Position numbers and translations under genes: made by a program | In this document: positions 1,958 through 7,922 of the stretch, in pieces | How positions within the stretch are numbered: position 1 is the first letter of the stretch | Layout: every line of letters starts with the position of its first letter | Assembly (NCBI GenBank): GCA_002070945.1 | Contig: MWEG01000109.1 | Coordinates: forward strand, 1 to 64,000 | Source: Lentisphaerae bacterium ADurb.Bin082 | GTDB lineage: Bacteria; Verrucomicrobiota; Lentisphaeria; Oligosphaerales; Oligosphaeraceae | Length of the DNA stretch: 64,000 nt | Direction of reading: 5' to 3' | The notes under the pieces: generated by a model | Told to the model about the DNA's origin: nothing | Databases searched by the model: none | What the model saw: the letters and a program-made list of their open reading frames with translations, nothing else

Positions 1958-2452
1958 ATGTCCAGCGAAAAATCATCCAACCGATGGCTGTCGCGCTCGG
2001 AATACCGCCAAACCTTCCGGCATGGCCAGCCCAGCCGCCGAGAAGAGTCACGCGAGGAGGCTTTGGCTGACTGGGTCGGCGAGGATCGCAGACCCGGCGT
2101 GTTCGCCGACCTCCGGCCGGAAGCAAAAACTGCGGCTGACCTGGTTCAGGACGTACTCAACAGCGTCAAGAATCCCGACTTGGCGCTGCTGGAGAAAATC
2201 CAAGACGCCTGGACAGGGTTGGTTGGCGTTGACAATGCCCGATATTCGCAACCAACCCGCATCTACAAGGGTCGGCTTTACGTTGAGGTGCCTGACTCGT
2301 CTTGGCTCTTTGTGTTTAAAACCCAGCGCCAAGCCGACATCAGCGGTCGCGTCGCCACCTTCACCCAGAACGCCATCACCGGCATCCAATTTGTTCCGCC
2401 GGGCATCAACCCGGCTTCTTCCACGCACCATCCTCGCAAAGGCCAACCATGA
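1958..2452 (+). CDS. DciA-like protein (DUF721)
   Basis: A 164-residue protein. Its central part, about residues 50-150, has the DUF721 pattern: a helix ending in a W-x-x-L-V-G segment (DAWTGLVGVDNA), then PTRIYKGRLYVEV and a Ser/Trp strand, then a helix. DUF721 proteins include DciA, the ancestral loader of the replicative helicase DnaB. The N-terminus is charged and poorly conserved, as is common. The stop overlaps the next start as ATGA, so the downstream protease is probably translationally coupled. No clear Shine-Dalgarno precedes ATG 1958, so the start is uncertain. Confidence 0.7.
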   Translation: MSSEKSSNRWLSRSEYRQTFRHGQPSRREESREEALADWVGEDRRPGVFADLRPEAKTAADLVQDVLNSVKNPDLALLEKIQDAWTGLVGVDNARYSQPTRIYKGRLYVEVPDSSWLFVFKTQRQADISGRVATFTQNAITGIQFVPPGINPASSTHHPRKGQP

Positions 2453-4845
2453 CCAGCCATTTCCATGTTTGCCGCCGTCGTTCCCTTGCCGCGCTTGCCT
2501 TGAGCCTGGCCCTATTCCTCGTCTCAGGCAGCCCTGCCAGAGCTGAAACGCCGGAAGAACTTCTCGCCCACGTCCCGACCGTCCCGACTCCGCTGCTGCG
2601 CGAGCGACTGGTCAGCAAATACGTCGTCATTCTCCTGTCCAAGTACCACTACCACCCGCAGAACATCACCCCGGCCCTTTCGGCGGAATGGTTCAACGAA
2701 TACTTCAACAGCCTGGATTTCAACCGCAGCCTCTTCCTGGAGTCTGACTTGGAGGACTTCCGCTCGTTCGAAAGCGTGCTCTGGGATCAGCGGACCATGA
2801 CTGCCAACCTGGAATTCCCTTTCAAAGTCTATCAACGCTACCTCGAACGAGTCCGCCAACGAGCCCTCTTCTCCATTGAGGCCATTGACAACTCCCATGA
2901 CTTCTCTGTCCAGGAAACCATGAACACCGACTTCAAGGACCTCCCCTGGTGCAAAACCGTCGAGGAACTGGAAAACCTCTGGCGCCAGCAAGTCAAAAAC
3001 GCCCTTCTCGCCAACCGCCTGCAAGAGGAAAAAGACGCCGCCAAAAAGAAAAAAGCTGGCGAAGCCGACGACGATGGCGCAACGGCAAAAAAAGGCCATG
3101 ACGCCCCTGCGCCGGCAGAGCAGGCGGCGCCAGCAGAACAGGCGGCACCAGCAGAACAGGCGGCGCCAGCAGAACAGGCGGCACCGGCAGAGCAGGCGGC
3201 AGCAGTGCCGTCTACGGAGGCGGCGCCATTTCCCGAGCGACTGGCCAAGAACTATGCCCGCAGCTACCTGCGCCGGGCAGAAGTCGAAGCCATCAACATC
3301 CTGGAAACCTACCTGACCGCGCTGACCCGTGTCCTCGACCCCCACTCCGCCTACATGGCACCGGAAACCAAGGAGAATTTCGACATCAACATGCGCCTGT
3401 CCTTAGAGGGCATTGGCGCGACCCTGTCCACCAAGGATGCCTACACCGTCATCGTCGGCATTGTTCCTGGCGGCCCGGCTGACCGCGATGGGCGGCTCAA
3501 GGAAGGCGACCGCATCACGGCTGTCGCCCAGGAAGGCGAGGAGCCGATTGACGTAGTCGAAATGCCGCTCAACAAGGTCGTCGCCAAAATTCGCGGCCCG
3601 AAGGGAACGACCGTCCACCTCACTATCTTGGAGGAGGGTTCCAACACCCCTACCCTGGTCAGCATCGTCCGCGATGAAGTCAAGCTGACCGACCAGGAGG
3701 CCCAGTCGGAAACACGACAGCTTTCTCTGCCTGATGCTGATGATCCCGCCCATGTCCTGATCATCTACCTGCCCAGCTTCTATGCCGACTTCGCCGCCCG
3801 CGCCAAAGGCGATCCCGACTACAAAAGCTCTGCCCGCGACGTACGCAAGCTGATTGAAAAGGCCATGGCCGAACCGTCTCCCCCCGACGGCGTCATCCTC
3901 GACCTTCGCGGCAATGGCGGCGGTGCGCTTGACGAAGCCGTGGACCTGGCCGGGCTGTTCATTCCCTCCGGCCCGATCGTGCAGGTGCGCGACAGCAGCG
4001 GCAAGATTGACCGCAAGGAAGACACCAATCCAGCCGTGAGCTTTGCTGGCCCGCTGATCGTCATGGTTGACAAACTCAGCGCCTCGGCCTCTGAAATCGT
4101 CGCTGGTGCCTTGCAGGACTATGGCCGCGCCATCATTGTCGGCGACGCCAGCACCCACGGCAAAGGCACCGTGCAATCCGTCATCAACCTGGCCAATGTC
4201 CGCGCCCTGAGCCAGGCCAGCAGCCGCATGCCTGACCCTGAGCCAGGCTCGCTCAAAATCACCATATCCAAATTCTACCGCATCAACGGCAGCTCCACCC
4301 AGGTCAAAGGCATCACCTCGGACATCAGCTTCGCGTCTTTCCTCGATCTTTTGGACTTGGGAGAGGAAAAACTCCCCCATGTCCTGCCCTGGGATCAAAT
4401 CCAGCCGCTCAAGTATGAAAGCATGAACCAGACCGCCGATGTGCTTCCCGCCCTCTTGGAGGCTTCGCAGAAACGACGCCAGGAAAATCCTCTCTTCAGC
4501 GAATACCAGAAGGACATTGACTTCTACGCTGATTTCCGGGCTGACAAGCAGCTTCCCCTGGAATTGACTCAACGGCGGCAATACCAGGAAGACGAGGATA
4601 AAACCGTCCGCATGTTCCGCAAATTCCAGGCTCAGCGCAAAAATGCCCGCAAGCGGAACATTGCCCGGCCTGACGAGGACGACATCGACGTTGCAAACGC
4701 CCAGGACCTCATCCTGGAGGAAACCGTCAACATCATGGCTGACTACATCAGCGCCAGGCGCCAGCAAGCGGCTGGCCCTGCGGCAACGGCTGCGGCTGAC
4801 CCTCGGGATGACAACGCATTGCACAACAATGCATTGCAGAGATAA
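2449..4845 (+). CDS. prc: Carboxy-terminal processing (tail-specific) protease, S41A
   Basis: A 798-residue periplasmic S41A protease of the long Prc/Tsp type. An N-terminal signal peptide (about 1-32, ending ARA-E) is followed by the Prc N-terminal helical region, a PDZ domain near 310-410, the S41 core and a Prc-type C-terminal domain. The catalytic set is visible by alignment with E. coli Prc: S546 in LSASASE, D557 in QDYGR and K572 in HGKGTVQ. The oddity is a charged linker followed by five AAPAEQ-type hexapeptides (about 221-250) inserted before the PDZ domain. It overlaps the dciA-like stop by 4 bp. It likely trims or degrades envelope proteins and may process division synthases. Confidence 0.95.
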   Translation: MTSHFHVCRRRSLAALALSLALFLVSGSPARAETPEELLAHVPTVPTPLLRERLVSKYVVILLSKYHYHPQNITPALSAEWFNEYFNSLDFNRSLFLESDLEDFRSFESVLWDQRTMTANLEFPFKVYQRYLERVRQRALFSIEAIDNSHDFSVQETMNTDFKDLPWCKTVEELENLWRQQVKNALLANRLQEEKDAAKKKKAGEADDDGATAKKGHDAPAPAEQAAPAEQAAPAEQAAPAEQAAPAEQAAAVPSTEAAPFPERLAKNYARSYLRRAEVEAINILETYLTALTRVLDPHSAYMAPETKENFDINMRLSLEGIGATLSTKDAYTVIVGIVPGGPADRDGRLKEGDRITAVAQEGEEPIDVVEMPLNKVVAKIRGPKGTTVHLTILEEGSNTPTLVSIVRDEVKLTDQEAQSETRQLSLPDADDPAHVLIIYLPSFYADFAARAKGDPDYKSSARDVRKLIEKAMAEPSPPDGVILDLRGNGGGALDEAVDLAGLFIPSGPIVQVRDSSGKIDRKEDTNPAVSFAGPLIVMVDKLSASASEIVAGALQDYGRAIIVGDASTHGKGTVQSVINLANVRALSQASSRMPDPEPGSLKITISKFYRINGSSTQVKGITSDISFASFLDLLDLGEEKLPHVLPWDQIQPLKYESMNQTADVLPALLEASQKRRQENPLFSEYQKDIDFYADFRADKQLPLELTQRRQYQEDEDKTVRMFRKFQAQRKNARKRNIARPDEDDIDVANAQDLILEETVNIMADYISARRQQAAGPAATAAADPRDDNALHNNALQR
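3109..3198 (+). repeat. Five 18-bp tandem repeats within prc
   Basis: Five in-frame copies of an 18-bp unit encode A-P-A-E-Q-A. Copies differ mainly at silent third positions (GCG/GCA, CCG/CCA, GAG/GAA), suggesting an older expansion kept in frame. The tract forms a flexible linker between the helical N-terminus and the PDZ domain. Confidence 0.85.
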
Positions 4846-4922: not shown

Positions 4923-6176
4923 TTATTCGCCGTTCTCCAATGCGAGCGGCGTCCCGGCGACTAGCGGCGCCTTTTCACGCGGAGCGGGTGTGGAAACAAC
5001 CGCTATTGCCATGCTGCTGGCTTCCTCCTGCTTGTCCTCCCAGGCGCACCGTTCGACCAGGCCGATGATCAGCAAGGTCGTCAACAGCGAGCTGCCGCCA
5101 TAGCTGATCAGCGGCAGGTTGATGCCGGTCGTCGGCATCAAGCCGAGGTTAACGGCAAGATGCACGAACGCCTGCCCGGACAGCATGACGCCAGCACCTA
5201 AATACACCGGATAGGTCCAGCGCGAAGCATGGCGACCAGCCAGGTAACAGCAATAGCCGACCCACCCCAGGCAAAGCAAAATCAACGGCAAGACCCCTGC
5301 GACGCCGAGCAGCTCTGCCGCCGCCGCAAAGATAGAGTCATTGTAGCGATACGGGACATAGACAAAGCTGCTCGGTTCGGCAAACAGCCCGCCTGTCCAG
5401 CCGCCCTTAATCAAGCAGTCCCGCATCTGCATTGCCTGCCAGCAGACTGCGGACAAATCGCCGCCAGTCCCGAAAAAGGCCATGAATCGCCGCCTCACAT
5501 ACGGATGACGCGCCAGCGCCCAGCTGATTCCGGCCAGGGCCGGCACCAGGACGGCCAAGACCTGACGCCAGTTCATGCCCAGGCAATACAGCAAAACCAG
5601 GGTCGTAAGGGCGTAAATCATGGTCGTGCCCCAGTCTGGCTGCAATATGATGGGCAGCATCCACAGCCCGGCAAACAGCGCTCCAGCGGCAAAGCGCGCC
5701 TGGAACGGCCATTTTTCCGCCCATTTCCAGAACCAGGCGAAGGCGATCAGGAAGGCCGGCTTGGCCAGCTCGCTCGGCTGCATGCAAAATCCGTGGAAAC
5801 GGTACCAGCTCCTCGCGCCCTGAATTTTCGTCCCGAACAAGAGTACGCCCCACAGCAGGCCATAAACCAAGCTTAGTATAATGCCCAGGTGACGTTTGTA
5901 AAAGGAGCGGGGAAAAAGGAAGCAAGCGCCCAAAAAGGTCAATCCGAACAGCAACCATACCATCTGCAAGCGCGAAAAGCAGCTCTGCGACGCCATGCCC
6001 CTGGTCGCGCTTTGAATCAGCAGGCAGCCTGCGCTGCCCAGGGCGAGGAGCAGGGCTACCAGGCGAAAATACACGTGCAGCCGACCAGTGGCGTTGCCCA
6101 AGTCACGCCTAATCGCCCGCGCCTCTGCCGTCACCTTTTCATGGGCTAACCTCGCCAAGATGAATATCGTCGCCAT
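4923..6176 (-). CDS. SEDS glycosyltransferase, FtsW/RodA family
   Basis: A polytopic protein of about 417 residues, membrane-embedded from about residue 33. SEDS signatures are present: QPSELAK at about 133-139, QPDWGT near 179, and LISYGGSS at 356-363. The extracellular loop that normally reads PExHTDFIF is PYRYNDSIF here; the catalytic Asp (about D280) is kept but its neighbours are changed. These enzymes polymerise lipid II into peptidoglycan with a class B PBP partner. ATG 6176 has AGGGGG 9 nt upstream; ATG 6203 and GTG 6134 are alternatives. It overlaps the upstream PBP-pedestal gene, implying coupling. The position in an mraZ-led cluster favours an FtsW role, but FtsW versus RodA is not settled. 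Confidence 0.9.
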   Translation of the reverse strand: MATIFILARLAHEKVTAEARAIRRDLGNATGRLHVYFRLVALLLALGSAGCLLIQSATRGMASQSCFSRLQMVWLLFGLTFLGACFLFPRSFYKRHLGIILSLVYGLLWGVLLFGTKIQGARSWYRFHGFCMQPSELAKPAFLIAFAWFWKWAEKWPFQARFAAGALFAGLWMLPIILQPDWGTTMIYALTTLVLLYCLGMNWRQVLAVLVPALAGISWALARHPYVRRRFMAFFGTGGDLSAVCWQAMQMRDCLIKGGWTGGLFAEPSSFVYVPYRYNDSIFAAAAELLGVAGVLPLILLCLGWVGYCCYLAGRHASRWTYPVYLGAGVMLSGQAFVHLAVNLGLMPTTGINLPLISYGGSSLLTTLLIIGLVERCAWEDKQEEASSMAIAVVSTPAPREKAPLVAGTPLALENGE

Positions 6177-6900
6177 TCCCGCGTTCCCCCTCGCTCTTTT
6201 CATCCATCACCATTGCCTGCCTGCCGTCGGCAATCATCCGCAAGCACACCAGCCGACCGCGCAGCACTTGATCATACCGCTTCTCCAATCCGGAAACGCC
6301 GCGTTCCAGGCCATGTTCGTCATCCAGCTCCACTTCGCCTAGCAACGCTGACTCCGGTGCGCCCGGCAACGTCTGCCGAACGAAATACGCATGCAGCGAA
6401 ACCGTCGCTGGCGCCCATGCCGACACCGAATGCAAGATGTCATCCGACAGGGTCAGGTCATGTTCCAGGACGACCTCCCGGCCCAGGCAGGTCGGCAGTG
6501 CCGCCGCAGCCGGCAGCAACGGCGCAAGCTCCTGGATTTGCGCACATTCCGTCCGTTCGGCCAAGGCTTCCGACAATGTGTCAGGGACGCGCCAAAGAAG
6601 CCGGAAGCGGCGTTCGGACCAGGCCAGCACCCGGCCATCGGCGGCGACAATGCGCCCGCGCCGGCCGGGTATCCACAGCTCCTGGGAAACACGATGCTTG
6701 GCGCGCAGCGCTTCCTGCTGGCCTGAAACATGATGCGCCAACCAGGCAAGGCGACCGAACAACACAACGGCGCCAACCGCAAAGACAATCAATAAATGCC
6801 AGGCACGGCGTATGCGCCGCTCTTCCACGCTTCGCCGCATCGCGACCGCGCCAGGCATTGTTTGTACAATAGTTCCAGCCACGTCTCCACGCCCTCCCAC
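6139..6900 (-). CDS. Penicillin-binding-protein dimerization (pedestal) protein lacking transpeptidase domain
   Basis: About 253 residues. It has a basic N-terminus, one membrane helix (WHLLIVFAVGAVVLFGRLAW) and then two marks of the class B PBP dimerization domain: GRRGRIVAADGRVLAWS, and EHGLERGVSGLEKRYDQVLRGR near the end. It stops where a transpeptidase domain would start. No SxxK, SxN or KTG motif is present, and the next gene (SEDS) begins inside its 3' end, so there is no room for one. This looks like a stand-alone FtsI/PBP2 pedestal. The start is uncertain: GTG 6900 has GGGAG 5 nt upstream, TTG 6933 would overlap the previous stop as TTGA, and ATG 6840 is also possible. Confidence 0.7.
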   Translation of the reverse strand: MGGRGDVAGTIVQTMPGAVAMRRSVEERRIRRAWHLLIVFAVGAVVLFGRLAWLAHHVSGQQEALRAKHRVSQELWIPGRRGRIVAADGRVLAWSERRFRLLWRVPDTLSEALAERTECAQIQELAPLLPAAAALPTCLGREVVLEHDLTLSDDILHSVSAWAPATVSLHAYFVRQTLPGAPESALLGEVELDDEHGLERGVSGLEKRYDQVLRGRLVCLRMIADGRQAMVMDEKSEGERGNGDDIHLGEVSP

Positions 6901-6929
6901 CAATTCTCCCTTCCCTCTGCTTGACGCTG

Positions 6930-7172
6930 TCAAGGCGCGTCAACAGCACAAGCGCGCAACAAGGTGACGACATGGTCAGACGACAGCTGGGCGGACAGTT
7001 CGCCGCCCCTGCTCCTGCCCGCCAAGTCCACGGCCAGTCGCCGTACGTCAACAGCATGGCGGTTGCCTTCGCGGACAGTCGCCAGCGCGACGCCCATCAT
7101 GAACCAACAGACCAAGCCAAACATAACCCTGACAAACAACCGCCGCCCCCGCTCTGTGTAAAAATACGCCAT
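6930..7172 (-). CDS. Small FtsL-like single-pass membrane protein
   Basis: An 80-residue protein with a short basic cytoplasmic tail (YTERGRR), one membrane helix at about 12-32 and a periplasmic part of about 48 residues. Size, topology and position between mraZ and the PBP-like gene match FtsL. FtsL sequences diverge strongly, so the identity rests on context. The start is firm: ATG 7172 is preceded by AGAGGAGAGG. The periplasmic part is too short for the long coiled coil typical of FtsL. It could equally be another small SEDS/PBP accessory. Confidence 0.6.
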   Translation of the reverse strand: MAYFYTERGRRLFVRVMFGLVCWFMMGVALATVREGNRHAVDVRRLAVDLAGRSRGGELSAQLSSDHVVTLLRACAVDAP

Positions 7173-7343
7173 ACTGCCTCTCCTCTGAAATTGCCCCTGA
7201 CTTCATCCCCAAACCCGTGCACATCCACTTGCACCCTCTGCCATCAGAAAAAAGCGTCCTTTTTCACATTGCAACGCCTTTCCCTGTTTTAGCCGCACCT
7301 CCACATTGCCCTTAGTTGTGAACGACTGCTGGGAGAAATGTCC

Positions 7344-7781
7344 TCATGCTCTTCCGGGTTCGGACTCGCCCATAGCCTTCATTTCGCGTTCCCAATCTTC
7401 AACCTTCCAGACCTCAACCCAGGTCCTGGCGCCGACAATCATCATCTCATCACCAGCTTCAAAGCCAAAAAACTCCCGCATGCTGGTGGGAAGCGTCACT
7501 CTGCCCTGGTTGCTGATTACGTCGCTTTGGCTCATCGCCCCGATCCGTCGCCGCTGGCGACGCTGCGCAGGATCAGCCAAAACCATGTCTGACTCGCTGT
7601 CCATCTGCCGGCAGTAGACTTCCCACTGCTCCACCGGGAAAATCGCTATGCATCCCTCCGGCAGGCAGTAAAACACCACGCCCTGATTCCCGGTCGTGCC
7701 AAAGGCAAACATCATGTACGGCGGGAGCTTTATGCGCCCGTTAGCGTCAAGCGTGCATTTGTTCTGCCCATTGAAACGCAT
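7344..7781 (-). CDS. mraZ: Transcriptional regulator MraZ
   Basis: A 145-residue protein with two SpoVT/AbrB-like half-domains: DANGRIKLP near residue 12 and SNQGRVTLP near residue 85. MraZ is the DNA-binding regulator at the head of the division-cell wall (dcw) cluster. In the second motif the usual Asp is replaced by Ser (SNQGR). ATG 7781 gives the canonical MraZ N-terminus and has AGGAG 10 nt upstream; a longer frame to 7826 is not needed. In most bacteria rsmH follows. Here the next genes are an FtsL-like protein, a PBP-like pedestal and a SEDS protein, so the cluster is strongly reduced. Confidence 0.9.
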   Translation of the reverse strand: MRFNGQNKCTLDANGRIKLPPYMMFAFGTTGNQGVVFYCLPEGCIAIFPVEQWEVYCRQMDSESDMVLADPAQRRQRRRIGAMSQSDVISNQGRVTLPTSMREFFGFEAGDEMMIVGARTWVEVWKVEDWEREMKAMGESEPGRA

Positions 7782-7894
7782 CTGTACACGACTCCTGCTG
7801 GCTCTCACACCTGGCCAAAACGGCACAAGAGGAAATCCAAAACTTGTCTAAAGAAGACCATTATAGACCATATTATCCCATCCTGTTCCAAAAG

Positions 7895-7922
7895 AATATC
7901 GCATAGTATTCGCTCTTGTCAA
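7895..7922 (-). promoter_or_regulatory. Putative sigma-70 promoter of mraZ
   Basis: On the minus strand TTGACA (complement of 7917-7922) is followed after 16 nt by GATATT (complement of 7895-7900), about 115 bp before the mraZ start. A perfect TATAAT (complement of 7860-7865) lies closer but lacks a good -35. The repeated GTGGG boxes bound by MraZ in other bacteria were not seen. Confidence 0.35.

Follow-up and report, generated by a model that had tools for sequence, protein, structure and literature searches.

This report concerns a four-gene locus on the minus strand of a 64,000-nt stretch of the Lentisphaerae bacterium ADurb.Bin082 genome (contig MWEG01000109.1, positions 1 to 64,000; the whole stretch is called the window in what follows). 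The locus probably encodes a third, dedicated SEDS-type synthase: judged from sequence, a pedestal-only protein, here named PED, would activate its neighbouring polymerase, SEDS3, and cross-linking would be left to other enzymes. In the cases studied elsewhere, a class B penicillin-binding protein (PBP) both activates a SEDS polymerase and cross-links its product. Here the cross-linking half of the synthase has been deleted across a whole bacterial class and the activating half retained beside a polymerase whose predicted catalytic site is intact; evolution seems to have parted strand building from cross-linking. The genes lie in the order mraZ2 (a second MraZ paralogue), a small open reading frame (ORF) with a single transmembrane (TM) helix, PED and SEDS3. 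An earlier reading of this DNA, the original prediction, had described the order as mraZ, a small membrane protein, a PBP-dimerization protein and a SEDS gene, and ORF and Pfam analysis bore it out.

PED occupies positions 6139..6840 (minus strand; ATG at 6840, although the start may be at 6858 or 6933) and consists of a TM helix followed by a pedestal. It matches Pfam PF03717 (PBP_dimer) above the cut-off (E=8.8e-6), as does the anchor and pedestal portion of class B PBPs, and the pedestal motif residues R61, G62, L72, A73, G181, G184 and E186 (RGxI..DGxxLA, GxSGxE) are conserved. The top PDB match of the PED profile is residues 13-225 of Pseudomonas aeruginosa FtsI (E=6e-24). An AlphaFold2 model (pLDDT 85) shows a long TM helix (2-48) and a PBP pedestal, and its Foldseek matches are PBP pedestals. 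The transpeptidase domain PF00905, with its SxxK, SxN and KTG motifs, is absent from PED and from the rest of the window, and a genome-wide search found it on other contigs only. As the C-terminal transpeptidase domain is absent, PED is a pedestal-only relative and not a PBP, in agreement with the predicted PBP-like gene that has pedestal motifs and no transpeptidase domain. The last 65 nt of the PED ORF (6139-6203) overlap the SEDS3 ORF in a different frame, so the SEDS gene does begin within the 3′ end of the PBP-like gene, as had been noticed. No frameshift can join a transpeptidase domain to PED, because the DNA that would be needed for such a domain encodes SEDS3; nor was an assembly error found that would do so, and relatives are built alike.

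The same architecture recurs throughout the class, which was identified as Lentisphaeria from named matches among metagenome-assembled genomes (MAGs). Within the order, PED is found in 26 of 48 genomes (25 besides the window genome) and 18 of 29 genera, always as an open frame of 232-364 aa, and the aligned proteins all end at a G-x-D-V/I strand that in ordinary PBPs enters the transpeptidase domain. Residues beyond the end of the profile number 7 in the median and 23 at most (66 PEDs). In the class, 81 of 132 sampled genomes have PED, exclusively as open frames of about 190-390 aa that end at the pedestal/transpeptidase boundary, and single-contig genomes (G024, G161 and G194) are among those showing it. 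When 388 genomes of the phylum were searched with the profile, strong short-frame matches came only from the window's class; outside it the matches were PBPs of about 600 aa. Three exceptions, two outside the class and one inside, were checked: two are full-length PBPs truncated where the contig stops, and the third, a frame of 350 aa, extends into a transpeptidase domain. Among named MAGs, matches to a related profile were nearly all labelled Lentisphaerae, Lentisphaeria or Victivallales. A Lentisphaeria-type PED locus was also seen in JAIPIM010000078 (L142), which is titled Candidatus Paceibacterota and is probably a misnamed MAG.

That close relatives might carry the full PBP had been put forward as a check; homologues near and far all lack the transpeptidase domain. 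PED is a conserved family, not a degraded one. The ratios of non-synonymous to synonymous substitution rates (dN/dS) of all four genes, compared within the genus, are 0.12-0.24 and indicate purifying selection. A frameshift, pseudogene or assembly error as the cause of the missing domain is ruled out by the relatives and by these ratios. The broader idea that decay or misassembly of a copy of the division and cell wall (dcw) cluster produced the locus has nothing in its favour except the missing domain itself; it is refuted by 81 independently assembled genomes that look alike, by the uniform C-terminus, by dN/dS and by a conserved operator described below, and we give it almost no credence.

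A stand-alone transpeptidase partner was considered and rejected. The candidates were PF00905 proteins of 277-335 aa (in G194, G056, G066, G191, G229 and G272), which resemble class D beta-lactamases, are patchy in distribution and are missing from several PED genomes. One of them, at L189:1354-2190 in G194, is a transpeptidase-like domain alone with an STFK motif and the look of a class D beta-lactamase; such proteins are patchy in gut Lentisphaeria. Natural PED-SEDS fusions were sought among the aligned relatives and the examined loci, and none was found.

SEDS3 (4923..6203, minus strand) has the SEDS fold: it matches PF01098 (FTSW_RODA_SPOVE) with E=2.7e-55, and its AlphaFold2 model (pLDDT 84, pTM 0.85) matches both FtsW and RodA, the top Foldseek match being FtsW 8bh1_A (TM-scores 0.72/0.81). 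The SEDS proteins of the class fall into three clades, FtsW, RodA and SEDS3 (support 100/100), and the grouping is the same with more sequences in the alignment. SEDS3 is neither an FtsW nor a RodA orthologue: its scores to TIGR02614 (198 bits) and TIGR02210 (188 bits) are both below cut-off and nearly equal. A profile of SEDS3 itself scores 300-495 bits within the clade and at most 271 elsewhere.

The residues on which SEDS activity depends are retained. Asp289 corresponds to Escherichia coli FtsW D297 and RodA D262; 53 of 55 aligned sequences have it, and W133, Q142, E145 and K148 are present in 53-55 of the 55; P143, D190, G192, Y368, G369 and G370 are retained as well. Substitutions of W138, Q147, D297, Y379, G380 and G381, whose equivalents are all kept in SEDS3, inactivate FtsW (PMC8765783), and substitution of D262 inactivates RodA-PBP2 (PMC10449877). 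By these residues and by the model, SEDS3 is catalytically intact. Two invariants near the active site are specific to SEDS3: Ser290, which is Phe in FtsW and most RodA proteins, giving Asp-Ser for Asp-Phe at 289-290, and His348, which is Asn in the others.

These invariants and the separate clade are what one would point to in arguing that SEDS3-PED acts on something other than ordinary lipid II, such as a modified, non-cross-linked wall glycan, an exopolymer or another undecaprenyl-linked sugar. On this view the substrate would account for the absence of a transpeptidase; SEDS proteins and O-antigen ligases moreover have a GT-C fold in common (PMC10449877). We consider such a substrate improbable, given that SEDS3 keeps the lipid II-handling residues tested in FtsW and RodA, that its fold is closest to those two proteins, and that its operon has dcw gene types, dcw-like order and a MraZ-type operator.

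For a dedicated synthase, PED and SEDS3 should belong together, and several kinds of evidence associate them. Pedestals form three clades, FtsI, PBP2 and PED (support 100/99), mirroring the SEDS tree. Among the 132 genomes of the class, 77 have both proteins, 3 have SEDS3 only, 4 have PED only and 48 have neither (kinship ignored). Two of the SEDS3-only genomes have a divergent PED adjoining SEDS3 and in the third PED is truncated by the end of its contig; in one PED-only genome the same has happened to SEDS3, leaving G003, G093 and G345, the last two from one family. In the order, loci with enough flanking sequence show the unit mraZ2 - small TM protein - PED - SEDS3; two of the loci (L064 and L066) have a different gene after PED. 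Of 40 further loci of the class, most have SEDS3 directly after PED and many have mraZ2 adjoining. In most loci the two genes are adjacent on one strand, and they usually overlap. Family f14 and a few other lineages have a PED that does not adjoin SEDS3; in G170, G066 and G235 PED is unlinked and a SEDS3-clade gene lies elsewhere in the genome. Sequence distances of PED co-vary with those of SEDS3 (partial r 0.51) more than with those of MraZ2 (0.13), again with kinship ignored. At four loci of gut lineages (L107, L112, L123 and L126), an MFS transporter and a HAMP/histidine-kinase-like gene adjoin PED.

It is also conceivable that PED is a non-catalytic competitor or modulator of FtsW-FtsI or RodA-PBP2, taking their docking site on the SEDS protein and damping or redirecting synthesis. 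The lineages in which PED does not adjoin SEDS3, and the persistence of PED in G093 and G003, where no SEDS3 was detected, would be expected of such a regulator. A tally of partners speaks against it: when class B PBPs are counted as full-length proteins with a PF00905 match of at least 150 bits, and a divergent SEDS-like protein on contig C26 is left out, 25 of 28 genomes, PED-bearing or not, have as many SEDS proteins as full class B PBPs and PED together (the exceptions being G003, G093 and G235), so that SEDS and pedestals come 1:1 only with PED as a SEDS partner. Co-occurrence (77 genomes with both vs 7 with one), the usual adjacency and overlap, and the co-varying distances likewise favour partnership, and we regard the regulator as unlikely. 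One of the exceptions, G093 (family f14, 2.0 Mb, 3 contigs), has a single SEDS protein, of the RodA clade, despite FtsI, PBP2 and PED; no FtsW was found in it.

Returning to PED as the activator of SEDS3, we infer the binding of the two proteins, the activation, the substrate and the source of cross-links as follows. SEDS3 would polymerise lipid II. PED would be its obligate partner, the TM helix docking on SEDS3 and the pedestal contacting extracellular loop 4, by which polymerisation would be activated. The complex would build glycan strands and make no cross-links; without a transpeptidase domain in PED, it could neither cross-link strands nor be a beta-lactam target. Cross-links, if made, would come in trans from FtsI, PBP2, PBP1C or an L,D-transpeptidase. 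The pair would be expected to be under tight control, since E. coli suffers toxic effects when polymerisation is uncoupled, with futile cycling under mecillinam (PMC6207328); MraZ2 would control the transcript level, and the small TM protein, probably in an FtsL-like regulatory role, may add control. The original proposal that a stand-alone pedestal activates a SEDS protein, with polymerisation apart from transpeptidation, thus gains support from the class-wide pairing, from an intact, separate SEDS clade and from the literature on how pedestals activate SEDS proteins, and it is still to be taken as a proposal.

Some of the evidence weighs against this proposal. The toxicity in E. coli means that special control has to be assumed. 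Among the genomes that keep PED with no SEDS3 found, two are good assemblies (3 contigs in G093, 80 in G003), and PED may therefore have a use apart from SEDS3. The pairing statistics, finally, the co-occurrence counts and the partner tally included, are uncorrected for shared ancestry.

The genome (5.1 Mb in 126 contigs, 91.5% complete) has other wall enzymes. A search of it for further class B PBPs and L,D-transpeptidases, which had been suggested as a check, found four transpeptidase-domain (PF00905) proteins and one protein of the L,D-transpeptidase family. Besides the FtsI of a canonical mraZ-rsmH-ftsL-ftsI-murE run on contig C19, in which RsmH was confirmed, there are a PBP2 above the curated threshold (C111), a PBP2-like protein (C117) and a PBP1C (C93). 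Four SEDS proteins are clear and one is weak and divergent; an FtsW-like protein is on C51 and RodA-like proteins are on C21 and C95. The weak one (L022:2239-3693, on C26) is a very divergent SEDS-like protein of 485 aa with 31 bits to PF01098, and could be a polymerase or a ligase. Since the canonical cluster exists on C19, the label 'reduced mraZ cluster' given to the window locus is misleading and was wrong: the locus is an additional, paralogous operon. It does not have the membership of a dcw cluster (mraZ, rsmH, ftsL, ftsI and mur genes); rsmH, mur and mraY genes are absent from it, mraZ, the small TM protein, PED and SEDS3 being all that it contains.

The operon appears to have its own regulation. 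The product of mraZ2 (7344..7781, minus strand, ATG at 7781) matches Pfam MraZ (PF02381, E=1.9e-15); the gene is upstream of PED in every locus of the order where the contig reaches far enough, and its dN/dS is 0.12-0.23. Ahead of it, also on the minus strand, is a candidate sigma-70-like promoter (7893..7922: TTGACA, 18 nt, TATTCT), called by consensus match only (10 of 12 positions). Directly downstream of the -10 element is a MraZ-box-like operator (7858..7890, minus strand) of four TGG repeats with a 10-bp period, the sole match of this pattern in the window (0.05 expected). At least three TGG repeats at this period precede mraZ2 in 32 of 42 relatives, vs 0.04% in mononucleotide shuffles. 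In known MraZ sites, too, the repeats recur every 10 bp and lie immediately downstream of the -10 box (PMC7761207), and direct repeats of this kind near a promoter before mraZ mark the window locus, at the sequence level, as a candidate MraZ-regulated operon; MraZ2 probably autoregulates it via the TGG array. The canonical mraZ on C19 is preceded (L017:6860-7028), as read from the sequence, by TTAGG repeats with a 10-bp period instead of TGG, as though each MraZ paralogue had an operator of its own.

The small bitopic membrane protein (6930..7172, minus strand) has 80 aa and one TM helix. Most of the 42 loci having both mraZ2 and PED carry a single-TM ORF of 72-108 aa between the two; the dN/dS of this gene is 0.14-0.24. 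The protein had been described as FtsL-like, and this stands for its position, size and single TM helix; a Pfam search with six of the small TM proteins gave no family worth naming and no match to an FtsL profile, so that 'FtsL-like' is a positional label. On the other side of the locus, a carboxy-terminal processing protease (2449-4845, plus strand) faces SEDS3 in convergent orientation; relatives of genus g6 (L051-L053) and L129 have this neighbour too, and the window copy has an (APAEQ)n repeat.

Taken further, and tentatively, Lentisphaeria might possess a third, beta-lactam-blind synthase, made of a SEDS protein and a transpeptidase-free activator, whose strands stay uncross-linked or are cross-linked in trans, serving a separate envelope layer or process under its own MraZ regulator. 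This points to a wall-synthesis route out of direct reach of beta-lactams, and PED offers a natural minimal activator for asking if a pedestal alone turns a SEDS enzyme on.

The PBPs of the RodA-PBP2 and FtsW-FtsI pairs dock with their TM helix on TM helices 8-9 of the SEDS protein, and their pedestal acts on extracellular loop 4, by which the polymerase is switched on (PMC8078798); RodA fused to the PBP2 TM helix alone is already stimulated in vitro (PMC10449877). The parts retained in PED are precisely those used for docking and activation. The RodA-PBP2 (MrdB-MrdA) elongasome resembles the present pair in combining a SEDS protein with a one-TM pedestal protein, in the catalytic Asp, Glu and Lys, in the QPSE motif and in the folds, but here the transpeptidase domain is missing, each of the two proteins falls in a clade of its own, and the gene order is mraZ-small TM-PED-SEDS. 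FtsW-FtsI and the dcw cluster are echoed in the locus order (mraZ-ftsL-ftsI...ftsW), in the best pedestal match in the PDB (P. aeruginosa FtsI) and in the MraZ-type operator; the locus differs in having no rsmH, mur or mraY and no transpeptidase domain, and the genome carries its true dcw cluster, full FtsI included, on C19. In Bacillus subtilis PBP2B and Staphylococcus aureus PBP1, both division PBPs, the transpeptidase activity is dispensable while the proteins themselves are essential (PMC8078798), and PED would be alike in that the essential role is SEDS activation and not cross-linking; those PBPs, however, keep an active transpeptidase domain, whereas in PED the domain is gone throughout the class. 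SpoVE-SpoVD, a duplicated dcw SEDS-class B PBP pair (PMC10693644), is alike as an extra, specialised pair beside the division and elongation pairs, but belongs to another phylum, and SpoVD retains the transpeptidase domain that PED is without. No description of a transpeptidase-less class B PBP as a stable SEDS partner was found in the open-access literature, subscription papers being outside the search. The synthase of SEDS protein and class B PBP is thus well known, and its transpeptidase-free activator, fixed across a class, appears to be new.

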